Positions 5,254 through 63,742 of a DNA stretch of 64,000 nt are shown piece by piece; the stretch's first letter is position 1, and each line of letters starts with the position of its first letter. The stretch is from Flavobacteriales bacterium (GTDB taxonomy: Bacteria > Bacteroidota > Bacteroidia > Flavobacteriales_D > Crocinitomicaceae): assembly GCA_947500875.1 (NCBI GenBank), contig CANMUN010000002.1, positions 1-64,000 on the forward strand, given 5' to 3'. The notes below the pieces were generated by a model. It saw only the letters and a program-made list of their open reading frames with translations, was not told the DNA's origin and searched no databases. The translations under genes and the position numbers were made by a program.

Positions 5254-6972
5254 ATGCGATTACTCGTCTTAACGATTGTATTTTTTGGGGTTTCCTTCGT
5301 TTTTGCCCAATCGGATGTGTTCGAAACCGATGGAAAAGGAAACCGAGATATCGAGCGCAGTAGCAGGATCCCGTCTTCCCCGAAAATCGTCGATAACATT
5401 CCTGTAAACAAAGTCACCAGCCGGCCCCTTTTAGAATTAAACCAACGCATTGTTGTTCGTACCGATACCATCGAAGCTGCAACCATTGAAACAGAGCAAA
5501 TGCTGAATAAATTCTATCCTTTTTACGTCAAGGCAGGAATGGGTTCGGCTTTAATGCCCTTTGCGGAATTGTATGTGAATTCCACAAGGTCTCGCAACAG
5601 CTATTACGGGTTTCACGCGAAACATATGAGCTTCTTTGGAACCATTAAAGACCGAGAAAATCAACGCTATGCCCCTGCAGGATTCGATAAAACCTCCTTG
5701 CTTGGGACTTTTGAAACCTTTCAGCGTTCATATTCGCTTTTGGGTCAACTGCACTACCTCAACCATGGCTTTCATTATTACGGTTTAACTCAAGAAAATG
5801 CTAATGCCGATTCTTTGGCGCAACGCTATCAAACCATTGATGCAAAATTGGTCCTTGATACCCATCCTATGGATACCGCTCGTTTCAACGTTCGTACCAC
5901 CGCAAACTTTCGTTACACCTCCACCGGAGCACCTTATCTTGACAGTTTAAAGGACTGGAAAGCCAAGGAACAAGCATTCAATTTGAACATGTTGGGCTAT
6001 TATACAACAGAGAAAAACACCTTTCATGGCTTATTGGGTCTTAGGTATAACGGTTATGCTTACGGTATTTTGGATTCCATTTTAATGCTGTCGGACAGCG
6101 GTTTACTTCGTAAAAACCCGATTTTTGATGTTCAACCGGGTGTAAAAAGCTATTTACTCAACCAGCGACTGTTCGTTGACGCAGGTTTTGCCGTGAGCAT
6201 AGATGGAGGCAACTCAACAAAAGCTTATTTTTTTCCGAAGGTTTATGCTCAATATGCTTTTGCTCAAAATTCTTTCGTTCCTTTTTTGAGCATTGGAGGA
6301 CAGATTACACAAAATTCACTCTATTCCTTGTACACCTTGAATCCCTATATCAACCCGAACGTGTTGATTCAAAATGAAATTAATCCTTACGACATTCAAT
6401 TGGGTTTTAAAGCAAAGATGGGCAAGAATTTCCATGGTGGTCTTAGCGCAAACTTTTTAAAAGTCAACAACCGCGCATTTTTTGTTACGGACACCTTGAT
6501 GTCTTCGGGTAATCGATTCGATTTAGTTTACGACTCCTTGAATCACACGAAACTTGAAGGAAAACTGACCTATCAGTCCGGATCCAAACTCAACGTCAAT
6601 CTTATTGCCCGCTACCATAGTTACGAGATGTTGAACGAGGCAAGAGCTTGGAATTTACCCAACGTTGAGGTTATACTCGGAGGAGCATATAATTTATTCG
6701 ACAAACTTTTGGTTAAAGCAGACTTAACTTTGGCGATGAATCGATTCGCAAAAGTAGAGGCTTCAACGCCTAATGCCCTTTTCGAAAACAACCAACACTT
6801 CATTAATCTTGGGAGCATAATTGATGCCAATTTAGGTATTGAATACCGCTACAACAAGCGTTTATCGGGCTTCTTACAAATAACGAACCTTGCGGCTCAA
6901 CGTTATCTTACGTTTTATAATTATCCGGTAATTCCTATCCAAGTTTTAGCTGGAATCACGTGTAAATTTTAG
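5254..6972 (+). CDS. Outer-membrane beta-barrel protein, TonB-receptor-like
   Basis: 572 residues from the ATG at 5254. The frame is open from 5233, but the later Met gives a clean signal peptide (MRLLVLTIVFFGVSFVFAQ) one base after the TPR stop. The mature protein has alternating polar/hydrophobic strands rich in Y, F, N and G, and ends with an aromatic residue (ITCKF), as outer-membrane barrels do. I see no obvious plug domain or TonB box, so it may be a barrel-only relative of TonB-dependent receptors. It is co-transcribed with the TPR protein. Cargo and role are unknown. Confidence 0.68.
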   Translation: MRLLVLTIVFFGVSFVFAQSDVFETDGKGNRDIERSSRIPSSPKIVDNIPVNKVTSRPLLELNQRIVVRTDTIEAATIETEQMLNKFYPFYVKAGMGSALMPFAELYVNSTRSRNSYYGFHAKHMSFFGTIKDRENQRYAPAGFDKTSLLGTFETFQRSYSLLGQLHYLNHGFHYYGLTQENANADSLAQRYQTIDAKLVLDTHPMDTARFNVRTTANFRYTSTGAPYLDSLKDWKAKEQAFNLNMLGYYTTEKNTFHGLLGLRYNGYAYGILDSILMLSDSGLLRKNPIFDVQPGVKSYLLNQRLFVDAGFAVSIDGGNSTKAYFFPKVYAQYAFAQNSFVPFLSIGGQITQNSLYSLYTLNPYINPNVLIQNEINPYDIQLGFKAKMGKNFHGGLSANFLKVNNRAFFVTDTLMSSGNRFDLVYDSLNHTKLEGKLTYQSGSKLNVNLIARYHSYEMLNEARAWNLPNVEVILGGAYNLFDKLLVKADLTLAMNRFAKVEASTPNALFENNQHFINLGSIIDANLGIEYRYNKRLSGFLQITNLAAQRYLTFYNYPVIPIQVLAGITCKF

Positions 6973-11079: not shown

Positions 11080-12948
11080 TTACCTTCCTAAATAGATCAA
11101 AAGAACGGAAATATCGCTCGGGGAGACTCCAGAGATGCGCGATGCTTGTCCGATGGTAATGGGTTGTACCTCGGACAATTTTTCAACCGCTTCGCTGCTC
11201 AAACTTTTCAATTGACGGTAATTCAAATCGGAGGGAATACTAACTCTTTCAAGGCGAAGCATTTTTGCCGCATTTTCTTCTTCACGATCGATATAACCTT
11301 CGTACTTGAGTTGAATCTCTGCTTGCACTCTTACCTCTTGGTTCAATTGCCGATCCTTTAGGTAATTATATAATTCAATATTACATTTTTCCAACATGGA
11401 TAAATCAACACCTGGTCGAGTAATGAGCGATGCTGCTTTCATTTGTTGGGAAATGGGCGCTGAGTCTACGGCCGTTAAATCATCATTGACCTCGGTTGGA
11501 GTGATACCAATGGTTCGAAGCGCTTTCTTTAATTGTTGGATTTCTTCTTCTTTCTGTTCTACTTTCCTGCGCTGCTCATTGGTCAACAAACCTAAATCCG
11601 ATGCTTTGATCGACAGGCGCAAATCGGCATTATCTTGCCGCAGCAGGATGCGATATTCCGCTCGACTAGTGAACATTCGGTACGGCTCGTTGGTGCCTTT
11701 GGTAACCAGATCATCAATTAGCACCCCGATGTATGCTTCGCTTCTTTGCAGGATAAAAGGCTCTCGTTCGTTGATTTTCAAATGTGCGTTTATACCCGCC
11801 ATTAGTCCTTGACATGCCGCTTCTTCATAACCTGTTGTACCGTTGATTTGACCGGCAAAATACAATCCTTCAATGCGTTTTGTTTCAAGGGTATGTTTTA
11901 ATTGCGTTGGTGGAAAATAATCGTATTCGATGGCATAGCCGGGTCGAAACAATTTAGCCTTCTCAAAACCCGGTATGGACTTGATCGCTTTAACTTGTAC
12001 ATCTTCTGGTAAAGAGGTACTGAAACCGTTAACGTAAATTTCAACCGTATTCCAACCTTCTGGTTCAACGAAAATTTGATGTCTATCGCGGTCAGCAAAA
12101 CGATTTATTTTATCTTCAATGCTTGGACAATAACGCGGACCGGTACTTTGGATGGCTCCATTAAACATGGGAGATCGATTAAATCCGGTTCTAAGAAGAT
12201 CGTGGGTTTCAGGATTGGTATAGGTAATATAGCACGGCAACTGCCGGGTTAATGCTTGGGTATTCCAAAAACTGAATTTACTGGGATGTTCGTCTCCAGG
12301 TTGAGGTTCCATTAATGAATAATCCAAGGAACGACCATCCACCCTCGGAGGGGTTCCGGTTTTCATCCTACCCGATTCAAATCCTAAGCCAATTAAGTCC
12401 TCTGTAATGCCCGTAGAAGCTTTTTCACCAACCCTACCGCCTCCGAATTGCTTTTCGCCTAAATGAATAATACCGTTTAAAAATGTACCATTGGTTAGGA
12501 TAACTGCCTTTGCAAATATATTGATGCCCAAGCTTGTTTTTACACCTACAACTTTTCCCCCTTCAACAATGACACCCGTACCCATATCCTGCCAAAAATC
12601 CACCATTGGATTCTGTTCTAACAAGAAACGCCACTCAGCGGCAAACATCATGCGGTCGTTTTGAGTACGAGGTGACCACATGGCAGGCCCTTTAGAGCAA
12701 TTCAGCATCCGAAATTGAAGCGCGCTTTTATCGCTTACTATTCCCGATCCTCCTCCTAACGCGTCTATTTCTCGAACGATTTGTCCTTTGGCAACGCCGC
12801 CCATTGCAGGATTACAACTCATTTGTGCAATGGTATTCATGTTCATAGTGAGTAATAAAACCCGGCTCCCCATCTTTCCTGCGGCATAAGCAGCCTCGCA
12901 TCCAGCATGACCTCCACCAACCACAATTACATCATACGTATCAAGCAT
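11080..12948 (-). CDS. mnmG: tRNA uridine 5-carboxymethylaminomethyl modification enzyme MnmG
   Basis: 622 residues, the normal length of MnmG (GidA). With MnmE it makes the cmnm5 group on wobble uridine 34 of several tRNAs, using FAD and a folate. The N-terminal FAD motif is [16 protein letters not shown], followed by the family blocks [20 protein letters not shown] and [18 protein letters not shown] and the C-terminal helical MnmE-binding region are also present. It is the last gene of a leftward operon after DUF4175, an anti-sigma-type ATPase and ybeY, with only 5 bases between ybeY and mnmG. A parS site lies 10 bases upstream of its start. In many bacteria this gene sits near the chromosome origin. 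Confidence 0.97.
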
Positions 12949-12953
12949 TTCTT

Positions 12954-13379
12954 TCAGTGTTTCACGTGAAACAATTTTGTTAGATAGTAGTTTTCTTTGC
13001 TTCTCATCGTTCTTATTTCTTCTTGGTTTTTATCATTGTACCCGAGCAAATGCAACAAACCATGGTACACAACACGATGCAATTCCTCATCGAACGACAC
13101 TTTTTCCACGCTTGAATTCTCTCGTACGCGATCTATAGAGATGAATAAGTCACCAGCGACATAGGTTTCCGTAGAATAATCGAAGGTAATGATATCCGTG
13201 TAATAATCATGCTTAAGATGTTCTTGATTTAGGGTAAATAATTCCTCATCTGAACAAAAAATTAAGGTTACATCTCCTAATTCCTTGCCTTCTTCCATAA
13301 TTATTAACGGCAATGATCCTTCCAAAGAATCCAAAGGTAGATGCTCGTATTCTTTCGAATAAAAGGAAAAAGAAATCAT
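12954..13379 (-). CDS. ybeY: Endoribonuclease YbeY (16S rRNA maturation)
   Basis: 141 residues, a zinc-dependent RNase that matures the 3' end of 16S rRNA and takes part in ribosome quality control. The metal site begins HGLLHLLGY, supplying two His ligands. The usual third His (GYDH) is replaced by GYNDK. I recall Asp/Lys at this spot in other Bacteroidetes YbeY proteins, so this is probably lineage-normal and not damage. The last codons, encoding FHVKH and the stop, are the parS sequence itself. The start overlaps the stop of the upstream ATPase gene by 4 bases, so the two are translationally coupled. Confidence 0.92.
12958..12973. other. parS: parS centromere site (ParB-binding)
   Basis: TGTTTCACGTGAAACA is a perfect 16-base palindrome identical to the consensus bacterial parS. 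ParB/Spo0J binds it, spreads, and loads SMC to segregate the origin region. It lies inside the last codons of ybeY, just upstream of mnmG. Chromosomal parS sites cluster near the replication origin in most bacteria. I found no second match in the window; other CACGTG cores diverge in the arms. parA and parB are not in this window. Confidence 0.9.
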
Positions 13380-13799: not shown

Positions 13800-16700
13800 T
13801 TATTGAACCATATTAAAATAACTTTCAGCCTTACTTCTAAAATACTGATTAAAAGAGGGATCCACAACATTGATCATTTCAACCTGTTTTACCGACTGCT
13901 TCTTGTACTCTTTTAATTCAATAAGGTTACTTGTATTTTGATCTTTTCCAGATTTGGATTCCCGCTTTTCCTCATAACCGCGTTCCATTATAGCTTTTTC
14001 GCTTTCTAATAACCTCGTTAGAATGTCTTGCTGGCGTTTAACCATGTCCTTATCAATCCGTTGATTGATGAGTTCGCGCTCCTGTTCTTCCAATTCTTTT
14101 AATAAAGGATTCAACTGATTGCCGCTGCCTTTACCGTCTTTGTTTAATTCATTTTTTAACTGTTCCAACTTTTGACGAATTGCGGTTTGCTCTGCTGCCA
14201 TTTTTGCAATTTCTTTGTTCCCCAACCCTAACATGTTCATGCCTTGAGTACCCGGTTTCATTCCAGGATTGTTTCCCTCTTTATCTCCCGGTTTATCTCC
14301 ACCAGGACTTTGACCCTTTTGCATCCTCTCCAATTGCTTCTTAAGCATTTCTTTCATATCACCCGTCGACATACTTCCCGGCTTCGGCTTACCACTTCCA
14401 GGTTTACTACAACTACCGTTACTAGGCATGCTGCTTTGAGCTTGTGCCTGCATTTGCTGCAATGCCTCATTTAACAGCAGTGCAAGATTATTATAAGCCG
14501 TCATTACCTGCTGCTCATTGCTGACTATATCTTGCTTTCTATGGTCATCAATGGCCTCGATGGCTGATTCTTGGGAAAACGCTATGTCGTTCAACTCTTT
14601 ATCAATAAAGCTTGCTACTTTCGGCTGACGCTTTGCCAAGGCTAAAAGGCTGTCACGAACCGTTCCTGTCTCTCGATTGATCCGTAGTTGTTCTCTGCCC
14701 AATTTCCGGTATTTGGGGTCGGAAAAGTTTACCCGGTTAAACTCTTCGATTAAAGACTCCTGATCAAAACTCAGCACCATCAAACTCTCCAAAATCTGCC
14801 GTAGCATTTCCATATCCTCCTCGGCTTGCTGTTGGTTACTCGCTTGCTGTTGCTGGTTTAACTGCTCTGCCAACTGCTCCATTTGATCACCGGCTTGCTT
14901 CTGAGCATCTTTTGCTTTACTTTTTTTATTATTTCCTAAATCTTCTTTTGCGTTATTCAGTTGATTATCAATAGATTGCTCTAACTCCTTGGTATTCTCT
15001 AGATTAAGCGGATCCATGAGTTCTTTGTTCAGTTCTTTGGTGTTTTCCAATTTTTTTTGAATTGAATCGAATTGCTGATTAATCTCATCTTGTTTCTTCA
15101 ATAATTCTTCCTTGCTTAACGACTTTTCATCCATCTCCTTGCGCAGTTCTTCTTGAAGTTTAGCCGTTTCTTTCAACTCTTTTTCGATATCGTCGATGCG
15201 TTCATTGACTTGCAACTTCTTTAACATTTCCAAGGTCCTATCCAATTGCTTGGTCATATTCTCCGAAGATTGGTCGAGTTTGTCAACCTCCTTCTTTAAC
15301 TCCATGTCAGCGCGGTCATTGAACATTTTTTCAATTTCTTCCAAAAGCTTTTTTAATTCATCGTCCATGACCTCCTCCAACAATTTTTGAATCATCTCTT
15401 GTTTTTCTAACAATTCTTTATCAATTTCAGAGAGTTGATTCTTATCTTGAGTAGACTGCTCCAACTGCTCCTTTATCCTTTCCAATTCGCTACTTAACGC
15501 TTTCTGTTCTTCTTTTAATTGCTGAATTTGTTGTTTATTATTCCAGTCTTTGGTTTGACTGTTGTTTAAATCTTTTTTCAATTTATCTACGTTGCGTTCA
15601 AAAGCCTTGGTCTTTTCAATCACCTTTTCGATATCCTTAGAAGTTTTTGCTTGATCTGCTTCGCGTTCCTTATTCAACTCTTGTAAATCAGGCAATGCGT
15701 ATTGTCCAATAAAACTCCTCGTAGATTTATGGCCGTTCACCCCATCGTTGTCGGAAACCGTAAAGAAATACTCTATTTTATCTTCCAACTGAACTGATTC
15801 ACGTCGAAAATCAACGGCAAAAGTAAAAGCACTCTTAGATCCAGGAGTAAACCCTACAGGCAGTACGGCAGACTTTACTTCTTTTCCTTTGCGAATAATT
15901 TTATACATAAACTTCAACGAGGAAAGACCGTAATCATCGCTGATTTGACCGTTGAAATACTTTACTCCTTCTTGAATCGAATCCGATTGTTCATTCAGCA
16001 GTATTTGTGGGTAAGTATCCTTTACAACATTAATCCTAAACTTTGTTGAATCCAACCTATTGTTAAATTTATTGATTAAAAACAAGGCTAAATCCCCTGA
16101 ATTACGGACCTTATGGGCCAACTTAAAATGTTCACTGTTAAAACGATGCGTATTGCCAAAGCATTTAATTTTCAAAGCTTTTACATTCGTTGCACCACCG
16201 CTCCAGGTTAATTGCGTACCTTCAGGAACCGTGATATCCGCAGCGTTCTGAATGATCTCGTTCTTTTTACTTAAATAACTCGGATAAATGGCCTGCAGAG
16301 TAATTTTTCCAAGGACGCTTTTTCCTGTTACGTGGTATTCAAAGGATTTACTTTGATAACCGTTCGCTTCAAAGTAGAACTTACCTGAAGTATTGACTTT
16401 AATGAGGGTAAAATCAAAACGGTTCTTTAAAGAACGGTTCATTAAAAATTTACCTTGATCGGTAACTAAATACACTTTATCCGGTATTCGTTCTCCCTTC
16501 AAAGAGACACTCACAGGAATATCAGTACCTTCTTCCACTGTATATTCACCCGCTTTCACCGAAAAATAAAACGGTAAAAACTCCTTATCAAACCTCACTA
16601 TTCGATAACTTCCTTGAGTTAAAATTGCCGGAATAAAAACCAGCAATAAAATCAAGGTAAACAATGAAGGTAATACGTATTTCAAGTACTTTCGATTCAC

Positions 16701-17165
16701 ACTAAAATCAATGGCTTCTGTGAACCTAAAAATCTTTAATTGATCGGTTTTTTGAGCTATAGAAGCTAACAACAATTCATTCGAGTTGTCAAAACCACTT
16801 TGCTCCTGGTGTAACTGTAAGGTATTGGTTAAACGGTCAGCGATTTCAGGGAACATCTGGCCGATAAGAAAACTTGCCTCTAAATGAGATTTTCGATTAA
16901 TGACTCCCTTGGATTGGAGTAAAGGGTAAAAAAACCACCTGAATAAAACGTATATGTTAGAGCAAAGAAAAAAACATAAAAAGAACAACCTTACCCATTG
17001 ATGTAAATCCAGGAAATATGCTAAACTTGAAAACATCAAGTAGGAAAAAAACAAAAGGGCTAAAAAAATTAGCAAACCCCGTATTGACTGATTTAAATAA
17101 AATTTATTTAAAAATCGATCAATTTCCTTTTCGAGGTATGCAATGTTGGAATTTGAGTCGGACAT
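13800..17165 (-). CDS. DUF4175 family membrane protein with long coiled coil
   Basis: 1121 residues. Hydrophobic segments in the first 190 residues (near LLIFLALLFFSYLMF, LFFLCFFLCSNIY and YVLPSLFTLILLLVF) are followed by beta-rich domains to about residue 490. A very long Glu/Lys/Gln coiled coil comes next (about 490-780), then a low-complexity Gly/Pro/Lys-rich stretch (GKPKPGS and similar), then a charged helical tail. This is the layout of Bacteroidetes DUF4175 proteins, whose function is not known to me. It probably sits in the inner membrane with the coiled coil as a reach or scaffold element. It is the first gene of the leftward operon ending in mnmG, and faces the AT-rich gap at 17166-17619. 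Confidence 0.82.
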   Translation of the reverse strand: MSDSNSNIAYLEKEIDRFLNKFYLNQSIRGLLIFLALLFFSYLMFSSLAYFLDLHQWVRLFFLCFFLCSNIYVLFRWFFYPLLQSKGVINRKSHLEASFLIGQMFPEIADRLTNTLQLHQEQSGFDNSNELLLASIAQKTDQLKIFRFTEAIDFSVNRKYLKYVLPSLFTLILLLVFIPAILTQGSYRIVRFDKEFLPFYFSVKAGEYTVEEGTDIPVSVSLKGERIPDKVYLVTDQGKFLMNRSLKNRFDFTLIKVNTSGKFYFEANGYQSKSFEYHVTGKSVLGKITLQAIYPSYLSKKNEIIQNAADITVPEGTQLTWSGGATNVKALKIKCFGNTHRFNSEHFKLAHKVRNSGDLALFLINKFNNRLDSTKFRINVVKDTYPQILLNEQSDSIQEGVKYFNGQISDDYGLSSLKFMYKIIRKGKEVKSAVLPVGFTPGSKSAFTFAVDFRRESVQLEDKIEYFFTVSDNDGVNGHKSTRSFIGQYALPDLQELNKEREADQAKTSKDIEKVIEKTKAFERNVDKLKKDLNNSQTKDWNNKQQIQQLKEEQKALSSELERIKEQLEQSTQDKNQLSEIDKELLEKQEMIQKLLEEVMDDELKKLLEEIEKMFNDRADMELKKEVDKLDQSSENMTKQLDRTLEMLKKLQVNERIDDIEKELKETAKLQEELRKEMDEKSLSKEELLKKQDEINQQFDSIQKKLENTKELNKELMDPLNLENTKELEQSIDNQLNNAKEDLGNNKKSKAKDAQKQAGDQMEQLAEQLNQQQQASNQQQAEEDMEMLRQILESLMVLSFDQESLIEEFNRVNFSDPKYRKLGREQLRINRETGTVRDSLLALAKRQPKVASFIDKELNDIAFSQESAIEAIDDHRKQDIVSNEQQVMTAYNNLALLLNEALQQMQAQAQSSMPSNGSCSKPGSGKPKPGSMSTGDMKEMLKKQLERMQKGQSPGGDKPGDKEGNNPGMKPGTQGMNMLGLGNKEIAKMAAEQTAIRQKLEQLKNELNKDGKGSGNQLNPLLKELEEQERELINQRIDKDMVKRQQDILTRLLESEKAIMERGYEEKRESKSGKDQNTSNLIELKEYKKQSVKQVEMINVVDPSFNQYFRSKAESYFNMVQ

Positions 17166-17619
17166 ATTCTTGGTAAAAATAAGGAATAGCAGCTATTTTC
17201 AAAATCAAAATCAATCAACAAAACTTAAAATTGTATTTATATTCTTTTTTTAAAGAAAATTTATTCTTTTTATTAAGGTTGTTCATTTGTTGATAACGTC
17301 TTTTTGAGGTTAACGGTGTTCATTTAATAAACGTTATTTGCACAGTTTGTTAACATAATTCACACCAAAATCCTTTGTTGAATCAATGATAACTCAATTC
17401 AATGAACATATGTGTATAGATTCCTAAAAAAAAGAGTGCATTGTGAATACTAACATGATAAAAACATGATAACTCACCCTTTCTTTTAAACGTCATGTAA
17501 AATTATTTTTGAATTAGCATTTATATTGGATTTGAACCCCCTGAGTTTTTATCTTTTATTAAATGTAATTAACAAGGGAATGAACAAGTTATTAAAACCA
17601 TAACTTTGTTAAAAAAACA
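17166..17619. other. oriC: AT-rich repeat-bearing gap, candidate oriC
   Basis: The only gap above 300 bases. TGTTCATT occurs four times: 17280-17287 and 17317-17324 direct, 17401-17408 and 17579-17586 inverted. ATGATAACTCA occurs twice (17386-17396, 17466-17476) and CATGATAA twice (17454, 17465). DnaA-box-like 9-mers are TGTTGATAA (17288-17296, 8 of 9 to TGTGGATAA), TGTGTATAG (17411-17419), TGTGAATAC (17442-17450) and, on the other strand, TAATTCACA (17356-17364), each 7 of 9. Bases 17221-17280 hold only 7 G/C in 60, like an unwinding element. A perfect parS lies 4.2 kb away, and mnmG is nearby. There is no perfect DnaA box, so origin status is inference. Confidence 0.45.
17601..17608 (+). 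promoter_or_regulatory. -7 box TAACTTTG before rpiB
   Basis: TAACTTTG matches TAnnTTTG and ends 11 bases before the rpiB ATG at 17620. No convincing -33 TTG is present. Confidence 0.5.
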
Positions 17620-19150: not shown

Positions 19151-21415
19151 TTAATCTTTCATCAAATTAATGACCGATTGATAGCCGTTTTCCAAGGTAC
19201 AATGCAACCAATACATACCAGGTTTTAGGTCAGTAACGTCAAGGGAAAAATGCAGGGTCGGAACAAAATATTGAGCGTTAACTAATTTACCTTGCAGATC
19301 AAACAAGTGGATTTGCACTAGGTTCGAATTAGTACGTCCATGGATAAAGGTTTTTCCAGGATTTGGATACAGGTTTATTTGAACATTTTCCAAACCGGGA
19401 AGCCCGCTTCCTTGCACACAAAAATTGAGTTGCGCTTGATCACCAAAATCTGAAGCCGCGGAAGAAATTCCTGTTAAAGAGTCTCCTTGAGCACTGATGA
19501 TTACATTGCCACTAGAATCGCACCAAGGCAAACCGTAAATTCCATCCCCGTACGAATCGTTGATGGTAAAAATGTAACACCCCGCATTTAAACACCACGT
19601 CTCACTGATTAAGCCCGGAGCATTATCCGGGTACCCGCTGCCACTGAATAATACGGTTCCAGCCTGATCTGCTACCTCCCAAGAGGTCTCAGAACCGTAG
19701 CAATCCAGCGTTAAATCAAGAAGTACGGCTTGTCCGTTAATAACTACGGTAAACATGTTGTTTTGTACGTTGTTGTTGATGTTCTCATCGTTCCCAGTAT
19801 TTGGATTATTCACTGTTGCAGTAAACGTATGCGTTCCAGCACCGAGGTTTGCTGCGGGTAAGGTTATGGTAGTCGATTGCCATTGTGCCAAGGATCCGTT
19901 CCACGTGTAGTTTAAATTATTTTGGCCATCAAAACCATAAGTTATGGTAACGGAAGTCAAAGTCAAGGCTCCTCCGTTCGAAAGGGTAACAGAAGGGGTA
20001 ATGGTTCCGTTACAAAAAGTTCCAGAAACTCCCGCAGTTCCGGACAAAGCAGGGTCTACTTGTGCTGGTACGTTACCGCTTGGGTCATACCCGTTCACAA
20101 AGGTGGCGTTCGAAGCAGCAGGGTCTAGCCAGTATTTCAATTGGTTCGTGCTGTCGCTGTTTTGGGGATTCCAAGAATAACTGATTTTACCGTATTCATC
20201 GGACAGAGCGGCTGCACCGCATGCAGATGCTCCACCGTGTAATTGACCAACGATTCGATGGTTTTGGTCAAACAAGGGTGATCCAGAAGAACCTCCTTCC
20301 GTTACTCCTTCATCCCAACCTGTTACTCCCCAATGGGAATTTGCTGGACTTGCTCCAAAAGATGTTGATATAAGGGGATTATTTTCAATGGATATTTTTT
20401 TAATATCCCCTGCGGGGTGATGAATACCTACAGCAGAGATTGGGGTGTTGTTGGTATTATCCCATCCGTTAAAATAAGGGTTGAATGCAGCAGGTACCGT
20501 CCCTCCTTGCAACCCCCCTGTTATTTCTACCAAACAGAAATCCGACGCACTGGCGCGTGCACGCAACACAGCACCGTTTAAGGATTGAAAGGTCGGTTCG
20601 CTTGCTGGATTGTTGCAGCCAGGGCTTTGCCAATTGAAACGAAACACCCAATTTGCGGGATTACTGAAGCAATGGTTTGCGGAAAGTACATAAGGCTTTC
20701 CGTTGTTCAAGGTATTGTTGATCAACGATCCGGAGCAAAAACCATTGTTGTTGGTAACCAGCATCACCACACCGTTTCTTTCTTGCTGCCAAGCTGCACC
20801 TTGCGGACAATTCACGTTAAAATTGCAATTACCCGAACTACCAAAGGCCTTTAAATAGAATTCATGAGGCGTTCTATATCCGTGAGTAACGGTACTCAAT
20901 TGAACGTGTCCTTTCGAATTTCCTTTAGGAACATAGTATTCAAGGATGATTTCATCTCCGGGTACCAACTCACTGCCCAATTGTTCTTCATAGAGGTGTT
21001 CTTCGGTAAATTTTCCCAGAATAAAGGTTTTATCTGGATTGTAGATGTACAATTCGTTGCCTTTCGGGATTACGGTATGATCAAAGGCAAGATTTAAGGT
21101 TAAGGCACCGCTGCTTTTAATGCGTAACAACCAAAGTTGTCCGTCGTTTTTTGTAGGTATCCAAACACCGTTAGCCATAGAATTAATCGAAGTGGCATGG
21201 TTGTAACCAAAGCGCCAAGGCTGGTCACCAAGGGAATCCAACACCCGGTCTTCTTCTTTCAAAGCGTTAATATCGGGAGAAGGAAAGGAAATCAAGGGGA
21301 CTTTTTCCCAACTGTTTTCTGGAAAATAATGCCCTTTACCCCCACCTCCTTGTATTTGTGCTTGGGTCTTTAATGTCAGACCGAGAAGAAGAAGGAATAG
21401 ATGAAATTTATACAT
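19151..21415 (-). CDS. T9SS-exported trypsin-like serine protease (lysyl-endopeptidase-like)
   Basis: 754 residues with a signal peptide ending near KTQAQ. A chymotrypsin-fold protease domain has a complete triad: H248 in LSANHC, D292 in ASDFCLVE and S377 in GGSSGSPL. Several Cys pairs resemble the Lysobacter/Achromobacter lysyl endopeptidase group, suggesting Lys or Arg preference, but the specificity pocket was not checked. A CARDB-like Ig domain follows (about 465-560), then a further beta domain. The end is a type A T9SS sorting domain (NLYPNPGKTF to LMKD). It is expected outside the cell or on its surface, degrading protein for growth. It lies 4 bases downstream of the thioredoxin-like gene. 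Confidence 0.9.
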   Translation of the reverse strand: MYKFHLFLLLLGLTLKTQAQIQGGGGKGHYFPENSWEKVPLISFPSPDINALKEEDRVLDSLGDQPWRFGYNHATSINSMANGVWIPTKNDGQLWLLRIKSSGALTLNLAFDHTVIPKGNELYIYNPDKTFILGKFTEEHLYEEQLGSELVPGDEIILEYYVPKGNSKGHVQLSTVTHGYRTPHEFYLKAFGSSGNCNFNVNCPQGAAWQQERNGVVMLVTNNNGFCSGSLINNTLNNGKPYVLSANHCFSNPANWVFRFNWQSPGCNNPASEPTFQSLNGAVLRARASASDFCLVEITGGLQGGTVPAAFNPYFNGWDNTNNTPISAVGIHHPAGDIKKISIENNPLISTSFGASPANSHWGVTGWDEGVTEGGSSGSPLFDQNHRIVGQLHGGASACGAAALSDEYGKISYSWNPQNSDSTNQLKYWLDPAASNATFVNGYDPSGNVPAQVDPALSGTAGVSGTFCNGTITPSVTLSNGGALTLTSVTITYGFDGQNNLNYTWNGSLAQWQSTTITLPAANLGAGTHTFTATVNNPNTGNDENINNNVQNNMFTVVINGQAVLLDLTLDCYGSETSWEVADQAGTVLFSGSGYPDNAPGLISETWCLNAGCYIFTINDSYGDGIYGLPWCDSSGNVIISAQGDSLTGISSAASDFGDQAQLNFCVQGSGLPGLENVQINLYPNPGKTFIHGRTNSNLVQIHLFDLQGKLVNAQYFVPTLHFSLDVTDLKPGMYWLHCTLENGYQSVINLMKD

Positions 21416-27726: not shown

Positions 27727-27744
27727 CTTTTGTTTAAACAAAAG
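27727..27744. repeat. 18-base perfect palindrome in a divergent promoter region
   Basis: CTTTTGTTTAAACAAAAG is perfectly self-complementary. It lies between the divergent starts at 27713 (-) and 27864 (+). Each end holds CTTTTG, part of a -7-like box in each orientation (ACTTTTG and ACCTTTTG contexts). It may be an operator or overlapping divergent promoter elements. Confidence 0.55.
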
Positions 27745-62693: not shown

Positions 62694-63287
62694 TTACGAG
62701 CGCGCAAAGCGAATGAGTGGAGAATAATCTCCAAGATCGGCCATTTTCAAAGCCTTCAAATATGCACTTCGTTGTTCGGAAGATTCAACCAAGCCATGGT
62801 GTCCCCAAGAAAACGTTTCAAGTCCAAAGACATGTGCCGCCATCAAATCCGCCATAATTCGAGAATGCCTCCCGTTGCCATTGGGAAAGCAATGTATGGA
62901 TACTAAACGATGCTTAAATCGTAGTGTAATTTCTTCAGGGGGATAAGTCTCATGGGTTATCCAAAAGGTGGTGTCATCGATGAGCCGCCTAAGTTCTATG
63001 GGAATTTTAACCCAGTCCACGCCAATATTGGTTTGCGTTTTCCGGAATTGACCCGCCCAGCGCCATACGATACCGAACATGCGTTGATGAAGCTGTACCA
63101 TGAAATCTTTGGTAAGTACGTCCGTGATTTTTCGTTTTGATTGAATCCACACTAATGCTTCATTGATATTCGCTTGCTCAAATTCATTCAACTGCTTTTG
63201 TGTAGCAATGGTTTTGATTTTCAACCCATCGATCTGATCGGGATCCAACGGCGTTTGACCATCTTGGTAGTTAAGAATTAATCCCAT
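62694..63287 (-). CDS. Mobile mystery protein B, Fic domain
   Basis: 197 residues of a Fic-fold protein of the mobile mystery B type. The Fic motif is HCFPNGNGRHSR (H132 to R143). The usual acidic residue that binds magnesium (D/E at position five) is Asn136. As I recall, this Asn is shared by the mystery-B family. Fic enzymes transfer AMP or related groups from nucleotides to protein hydroxyls; this one could act differently. It always pairs with protein A, and here the start overlaps A by 10 bases. The pair resembles a toxin-antitoxin module, unproven. Its stop lies 24 bases from the GC-rich hairpin at 62653-62669. Confidence 0.88.
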   Translation of the reverse strand: MGLILNYQDGQTPLDPDQIDGLKIKTIATQKQLNEFEQANINEALVWIQSKRKITDVLTKDFMVQLHQRMFGIVWRWAGQFRKTQTNIGVDWVKIPIELRRLIDDTTFWITHETYPPEEITLRFKHRLVSIHCFPNGNGRHSRIMADLMAAHVFGLETFSWGHHGLVESSEQRSAYLKALKMADLGDYSPLIRFARS

Positions 63288-63742
63288 AAGCTTTTTGGCA
63301 TGTTGTCAGCGAGTTCCCTTGTCAGTCTTTCTAACTCTTGGGTTTGGCTCTCTTGATTAGTCTCTTGACCCTCTAATCGCATGGTTTGATTCGATTGGAT
63401 TAAAATTTCCTGCGCTTTCTTTTTTGCTTGTTGTGTAATGGTGTTTTTTATGGAACCACTCTTGGGTTTAAAATAATATACCAGTTCCATATCCATTGCA
63501 TTTGCCGCTTTTTTTAAGGTAGCTAATGTAATTGCCTCGGTTTGTTCCCTTTTTTCAAAATTGGTTAGCGCACTTGCCGATACTCCAACGCGATGTGCAA
63601 GCTGCCTTAAGGACATACCCAAAGCCAATCGAGTATATTGAATCCATCCAACGGATAATTTAATCGAATGATTTCCCGTGTTGTAGGACTGGATTAATTC
63701 ATCCAGGTGCTTTTGGGTAAGGGTTCTTTTAAAATAATTCAT
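63278..63742 (-). CDS. Mobile mystery protein A, Xre-type regulator
   Basis: 154 residues. A helix-turn-helix of the Xre/Cro type (about 35-90) has MSLRQLAHRVGVSASALTNFEK, then a mostly helical C-terminal arm rich in Gln and Glu. Mobile mystery A is known as the invariable partner of the Fic protein B, and the two spread together among unrelated bacteria. It starts with ATG at 63742. A palindrome over its promoter (63748-63782) suggests that it represses its own operon. Confidence 0.88.
   Translation of the reverse strand: MNYFKRTLTQKHLDELIQSYNTGNHSIKLSVGWIQYTRLALGMSLRQLAHRVGVSASALTNFEKREQTEAITLATLKKAANAMDMELVYYFKPKSGSIKNTITQQAKKKAQEILIQSNQTMRLEGQETNQESQTQELERLTRELADNMPKSLWD

Follow-up and report, generated by a model that had tools for sequence, protein, structure and literature searches.

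Why does a ybeY gene of a Flavobacteriales-type bacterium end on a perfect 16-bp palindrome, and what keeps this word in place? The locus lies in a window of 64,000 nucleotides, by which we mean the whole stretch of DNA analysed. With a probability of roughly 0.93, we take the palindrome to be parS, the chromosomal centromere site of this bacterium. According to this reading, which is built on sequence comparisons, ParB produced from a parAB operon located elsewhere (contig C29) would bind parS, load there and extend along the ybeY-mnmG region, and ParA would then move the newly copied origin region. Selection would retain the DNA word, the amino acids that it encodes being set by the frame in which it happens to land.

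The palindrome at the ybeY-mnmG junction

A motif scan of the window located the word TGTTTCACGTGAAACA, which is a perfect palindrome and matches the parS consensus TGTTNCACGTGAAACA exactly, confirming the site announced by the original prediction (Table 1). On the minus strand, ybeY ends with AAA TTG TTT CAC GTG AAA CAC TGA, translated as K L F H V K H stop, in agreement with the proposal that parS encodes the last residues FHVKH of YbeY; the site begins at base two of the Leu codon and finishes at base two of the final His codon. By overlapping the gene in this way, parS fixes the codons with which ybeY ends. The proposed neighbourhood with mnmG was also verified, as NCBIfam models support the names of both genes (94 bits for a cut-off of 45 for YbeY, and 853 bits for a cut-off of 525 for MnmG). 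With only 5 bp between the two genes, the site lies about 10 bp ahead of the mnmG ATG, mnmG starting at 12948.

Table 1. Features of the window around the ybeY-mnmG junction
Feature	Position	Strand	Remarks
parS, perfect palindrome TGTTTCACGTGAAACA	12958..12973	.	exact match; sole exact copy in the assembly; core conserved at the junction
ybeY (rRNA maturation RNase)	12954..13379	-	last codons, FHVKH, written by parS; NCBIfam
Spacer of 5 bp, ybeY stop to mnmG start	12949..12953	.	
mnmG (gidA)	11080..12948	-	NCBIfam; adjoins parS across most of the phylum
parS-like site, 2 mismatches, GGTTTCACGCGAAACA	5609..5624	.	probably not functional
A+T-rich gap between the ORF 13800-17165 (-) and rpiB (+)	17166..17619	.	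near the local skew switch; 4.2 kb from parS

The assembly (2,503,375 bases in 102 contigs) contains a single exact match to parS, and base composition predicts 2e-5 exact matches per window and 9e-4 per assembly. A match arising by chance, already considered very unlikely in the original prediction, is refuted by this expectation together with the conservation of the word in relatives described below, and its probability is practically nil. Sites with up to three mismatches numbered 14 in the whole assembly versus 22 for the reversed control pattern, and a genome-wide excess of near-matches is therefore absent. Of the 13 parS-like sites with two or three mismatches, three, at window positions 5609, 57575 and 61363, are carried by contig C2, which represents 3.8% of the assembly (binomial P ~0.012); they are possibly weak half-sites near the origin. 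Regarding the site at 5609, no match with up to two mismatches was detected at the equivalent position of L015, the closest of the named relatives. Two further observations were made in the window. Positions 27727-27744, between ORFs, hold a perfect palindrome of 18 bp, CTTTTGTTTAAACAAAAG, and a small pair of minus-strand genes at 62694-63742 comprises a helix-turn-helix-regulator-like ORF followed by one with a Fic-like motif (FPNGNGR), both named by eye.

Reading frame of the site in family genomes

The ybeY ends were compared in a set of 120 family genomes, 115 of which gave a YbeY match and 114 of which could be scored (G351 was left out, its contig ending ahead of the ybeY stop, and a second, partial YbeY match in G349 was not used). 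The 14-bp core GTTYCACGTGRAAC was present at the ybeY-mnmG junction, taken as 60 bp before to 400 bp after the ybeY stop, in 113 of the 114 scorable genomes, and the remaining one, G377, carries a one-mismatch copy, TGTTACACGTGAAACA, in the ybeY-mnmG gap. At least one full TGTTYCACGTGRAACA was found in 101 of the 114.

The way in which ybeY reads this word changes from one genome to another. The site is translated as FHV(K/E)(H/Q/R) in 12 family genomes and as V(S/P)RET or a similar tail in 32; its internal TGA provides the ybeY stop codon in 20, with tails ending in FT; it touches only the ybeY stop codon in 9 and lies past the stop in 40. Across the family genomes, the parS word occurs in all three ybeY frames. 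A quick tree of the 114 rows, computed from YbeY minus its last 12 codons and the start of MnmG and containing many weak forks, requires no fewer than 8 switches between the three coding frames, and no fewer than 23 when every placement is counted. In this tree, the window genome and G370, both of the FHV type, group together (support 91) among genus-mates that mostly have VSRET or VPRET. Since the word is kept across changed frames, it is the DNA and not the protein that is conserved; the tail is dictated by the site, since its residues switch with the frame (FHVKH, VSRET, FT-stop) or are missing altogether. In four loci (L109, L111, L120 and L122), ybeY lies next to repeats that combine a piece of its tail with parS, as if the tail had been duplicated with its site and the stop moved.

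Codon usage was described for tails chosen by their peptide and not by their DNA, the pattern being widened to C and P and so taking in the decayed tails of G394 and G385; these counts are descriptive, the genomes being related. In the 34 VxRxT tails selected in this way, the codons are GTT (34), then TCA (25), CCA (8) or TCG (1), then CGT (33) or TGT (1), and GAA (33) or GGA (1), and in the 12 FHV tails, CAC and GTG are used in 12 cases each. Elsewhere in these genes, the shares among synonymous codons are 37% for CGT (Arg), 22% for TCA (Ser), 29% for CAC (His) and 19% for GTG (Val). Synonymous positions are thus nearly invariant in the tails, as the check proposed beforehand on the 16-base word had called for, and the variable parS position is one that alters the residue (S/P, K/E). 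Variation of parS is known at the positions that vary in these tails. An intact core lies at most 50 bp from either of the decayed coded tails, VSREP (G385) and VSCET (G394).

Twelve family genomes share a tail of the FHVKH or FHVEH form, as would be expected if this peptide were conserved for a function of YbeY, the match to parS being incidental. However, most relatives have VSRET, an FT-stop or no parS-coded tail, and the DNA word persists all the same; frame switching refutes a conserved peptide as the main cause, and we give this explanation hardly any weight. In the original prediction, both the DNA and the function of the protein constrain the C-terminus of YbeY: the first part stands, whereas the second does not, as only a DNA constraint was found. 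The converse situation, a palindrome lost under a retained YbeY tail, was not what close relatives displayed, as they keep the palindrome and alter the tail. The comparisons point to the DNA word as the probable target of selection, from which the amino acids of the YbeY tail would follow according to the frame.

A perfect palindrome can also act in RNA, and the word folds at -3.9 kcal/mol, which would suit a hairpin ending the ybeY message as a terminator, a stability or a translation signal. The variation of the site does not respect such a stem, however: the sense-strand variant that ranks second in frequency, TGTTCCACGTGAAACA, loses a pair and drops to 0 kcal/mol, a C-A combination occupies positions 5/12 in 67 of 194 sense-strand sites compared to 14 with the tolerated U-G, and no T run follows the site. 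Compensatory changes elsewhere in the stem were not seen among these sites, although some would have escaped notice because the sites had been chosen with the core pattern. An RNA hairpin is accordingly a very improbable explanation.

Attachment of the site to mnmG across the phylum

Judged by MnmG, the closest named relatives are MAGs labelled Flavobacteriales and Crocinitomicaceae and a Fluviicola, with 73-77% identity; on this basis the organism belongs to the Bacteroidota and is of Flavobacteriales type, its family name being presumptive. A core site lies within 700 bp of mnmG in 68 of 80 named relatives, on the 5' side only in 19, on the 3' side only in 2 and on both sides in 47, and none was found within this distance in the other 12, which is counted against the parS reading. 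The named loci, amounting to 1.57 Mb, contain 158 core sites, and the 6 located further out all belong to a single locus, where they are some 1 kb away from mnmG. It should be noted that mnmG is bracketed by core parS in these 47 of the 80 relatives (L015-L094), and that three MAG records labelled Chryseobacterium gleum, Limnohabitans and Chitinophaga pinensis (L017, L031 and L080) have mnmG contigs of Flavobacteriales type, so that their labels or bins look wrong.

At the level of the phylum, TGTTYCACGTGRAACA occurs in 224 of 296 genomes versus 1 of 296 for the reversed control. Among 22 closed or nearly closed genomes, 20 of which consist of a single contig, the core is present in 20, and none of its 62 copies is more than 2.1 kb from mnmG or ybeY; the other two, G033 and G249, have one-mismatch copies only, at mnmG/ybeY. 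An even spread of sites over the genome, which would have spoken against parS, is therefore not what is observed, the exact copy of the present assembly being unique and 62 of 62 core sites lying at ybeY/mnmG in 20 of the 22 relatives. In one genome (G206), 8 parS copies were seen 5' of mnmG and 1 copy 3'.

In 33 representatives, one per family code in the phylum and picked for having a site, the site is within 600 bp of mnmG in 27 and within 100 bp in 24; it is 5' only in 10, 3' only in 13 and on both sides in 4. The exceptions are G030, G179 and G254, at 7-16 kb, and G013, G109 and G275, on other contigs. At class level, among the matches listed, parS and mnmG were seen on different contigs or some 118 kb apart in family f7 (G037, G064, G158, G162 and G178) and about 26 kb apart in family f9 (G072 and G166). 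The link between mnmG and parS is broken in these two families. When all 16 class-level genomes devoid of the 16-mer were inspected by eye for the 14-mer with up to one mismatch, 14 had a site within 600 bp of mnmG (exact in 11, with one mismatch in 3), and no such 14-mer was found within 600 bp of mnmG in G091 and G037. Absence of ParB was rejected as a cause of the missing exact sites, PF02195 ParB being present in 73 of 73 class-level genomes.

This proximity is also what would be expected of a transcription-factor operator controlling mnmG and unrelated to ParB, the site being about 10 bp ahead of the mnmG ATG here and at most 100 bp away in 24 of the 33 representatives, chosen for having a site. 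However, the word is exactly that of parS, its copy number ranges from 1 to 9, it is far from mnmG in family f7, and a cross-comparison of placements positioned it inside mnmG in G017, among the matches listed. The 13 representatives with 3' sites only are hard to square with an operator, which would not sit only downstream of the gene. We consider an operator unlikely as the explanation of the site; a second role of parS in mnmG control is possible.

The tie of parS to mnmG exceeds what a centromere needs, and this is counted against the parS reading. One tentative and rather doubtful proposal is that mnmG and parS form a fixed unit of the Bacteroidota, at most about 100 bp apart in most families while parAB moved to the far side of the chromosome, and that ParB loading would also serve mnmG or ybeY, inertia alone not being the cause; the output of a tRNA-modification and an rRNA-maturation gene might for example be tied in this way to origin segregation.

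ParB, the origin region and known systems

A centromere calls for its binding protein, and lack of ParB in the organism had been named as a ground for abandoning parS. The genome has one ParB_N match, on contig C29; the ORF concerned shares an overlap with a ParA-like one. This protein matches PF02195 at 3.7e-34 and the ParB/RepB/Spo0J partition protein model TIGR00180 of NCBIfam with 190 bits (cut-off 58), it scores 233 bits with the Noc model TIGR04285, under the cut-off of 315, and its best relatives of solved structure are Spo0J and ParB. In Caulobacter numbering, its residues are Q162, A170, K171, S172, R173, N178, H179, K184, G201 and R204, among which A170 departs from the usual G. A published study of ParB and Noc describes R173 and G201 as absolutely conserved in ParB, Q and R at positions 173 and 201 marking Noc (PMC7383237). 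Having R173 and G201, the protein carries specificity residues of the parS type and not of the Noc type.

The operon itself is not found at the site. In the draft genome of the window, parAB is on a contig other than that of parS (G000:C29:6860-7129, L095), and in 14 of 14 closed genomes parB lies 16.5-49.6% of the chromosome away from parS (a distance to parS, not to oriC). This distance reaches 44-50% in four closed family members, which places parB near the opposite end. In a review, par operons and most parS sites are assigned to the ori domain (PMC7022226). The unlinking of parAB from parS is contrary to this rule and is counted against the parS reading; the centromere stays put while the operon does not.

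Around mnmG, a uniform switch of local GC skew was not found in 62 named loci, and closed genomes were therefore sampled, five of them at 15-20 places each. Skew values were for the most part negative to one side and positive to the other, and they switched at the locus or close to it: within 133 kb in G281, between parS and +214 or +218 kb in G269 and G299, from +232 to +463 kb in G353, and from parS to about +390 kb in G134, where the signal was noisier. In these closed relatives (n=5), the switch is thus at the locus or within about 0.46 Mb. Its failure to coincide exactly with parS in every case, as in G353, and the noise in G134 are counted against the parS reading. The cumulative skew of the window reaches its minimum at 19706, and the A+T-rich gap upstream of rpiB (Table 1) is a weak candidate for oriC. 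DnaA-box-like 9-mers with up to one mismatch number 26 in the window, one of which, at 17288 and with one mismatch, falls in the gap; such boxes are sparse, and oriC is therefore not claimed.

Taken together, the sequence of the site, its uniqueness, the contact residues of ParB, the frame-independent conservation of the DNA, the clustering at mnmG and the proximity of the skew switch in closed relatives all support the parS reading. The locus would offer a clean natural case of a DNA-binding site that writes the end of a protein, the word being kept in three frames and even supplying the stop, with no constraint on the amino acids. It would further provide a simple means of finding the centromere and the origin region in Bacteroidota drafts, namely to look beside mnmG. 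Centromere and parAB are usually far apart in Bacteroidota, against the usual rule, and this separation makes two matters testable: the reason for which parS remains beside mnmG, and a possible influence of ParB on mnmG.

The parS consensus, the presence of parS inside genes and its occurrence around gidA/gidB are already known, and parS sites were reportedly surveyed in 2007. No description of parS at ybeY or mnmG in Bacteroidota appeared in the titles and abstracts of the open literature, a scope outside which most subscription papers lie, and no priority is claimed; the attachment of parS to mnmG and its separation from parAB look under-described. In Bacteroides caecimuris and Muribaculum intestinale, parS clusters and ParABS homologues lie near ori, as determined by GC skew and Hi-C, and were used to place ori; the passages considered from that study of gut bacteria name neither mnmG nor ybeY, and do not give the place of parAB (PMC10197239). 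Thermus thermophilus likewise has one chromosomal parS in a coding sequence, close to the origin as the present site probably is, but the Thermus site is in gidB, directly upstream of parA, whereas the present one is at the 3' end of ybeY before mnmG (gidA), without parAB (PMC4409726). Likewise, the Mycobacterium parS sites, at gidB and inside parA, overlap coding or promoter sequences of the gid/par cluster, a likeness to the present locus, but they are within 2 kb of parB, whereas parAB is here on another contig (PMC2346475). With the chromosomal ParABS systems of B. subtilis and mycobacteria, the locus has in common the 16-bp word TGTTNCACGTGAAACA, ParB residues of the parS type and, probably, a position near the origin; it differs from them in that parS is anchored at ybeY-mnmG and parAB is far off instead of adjoining.
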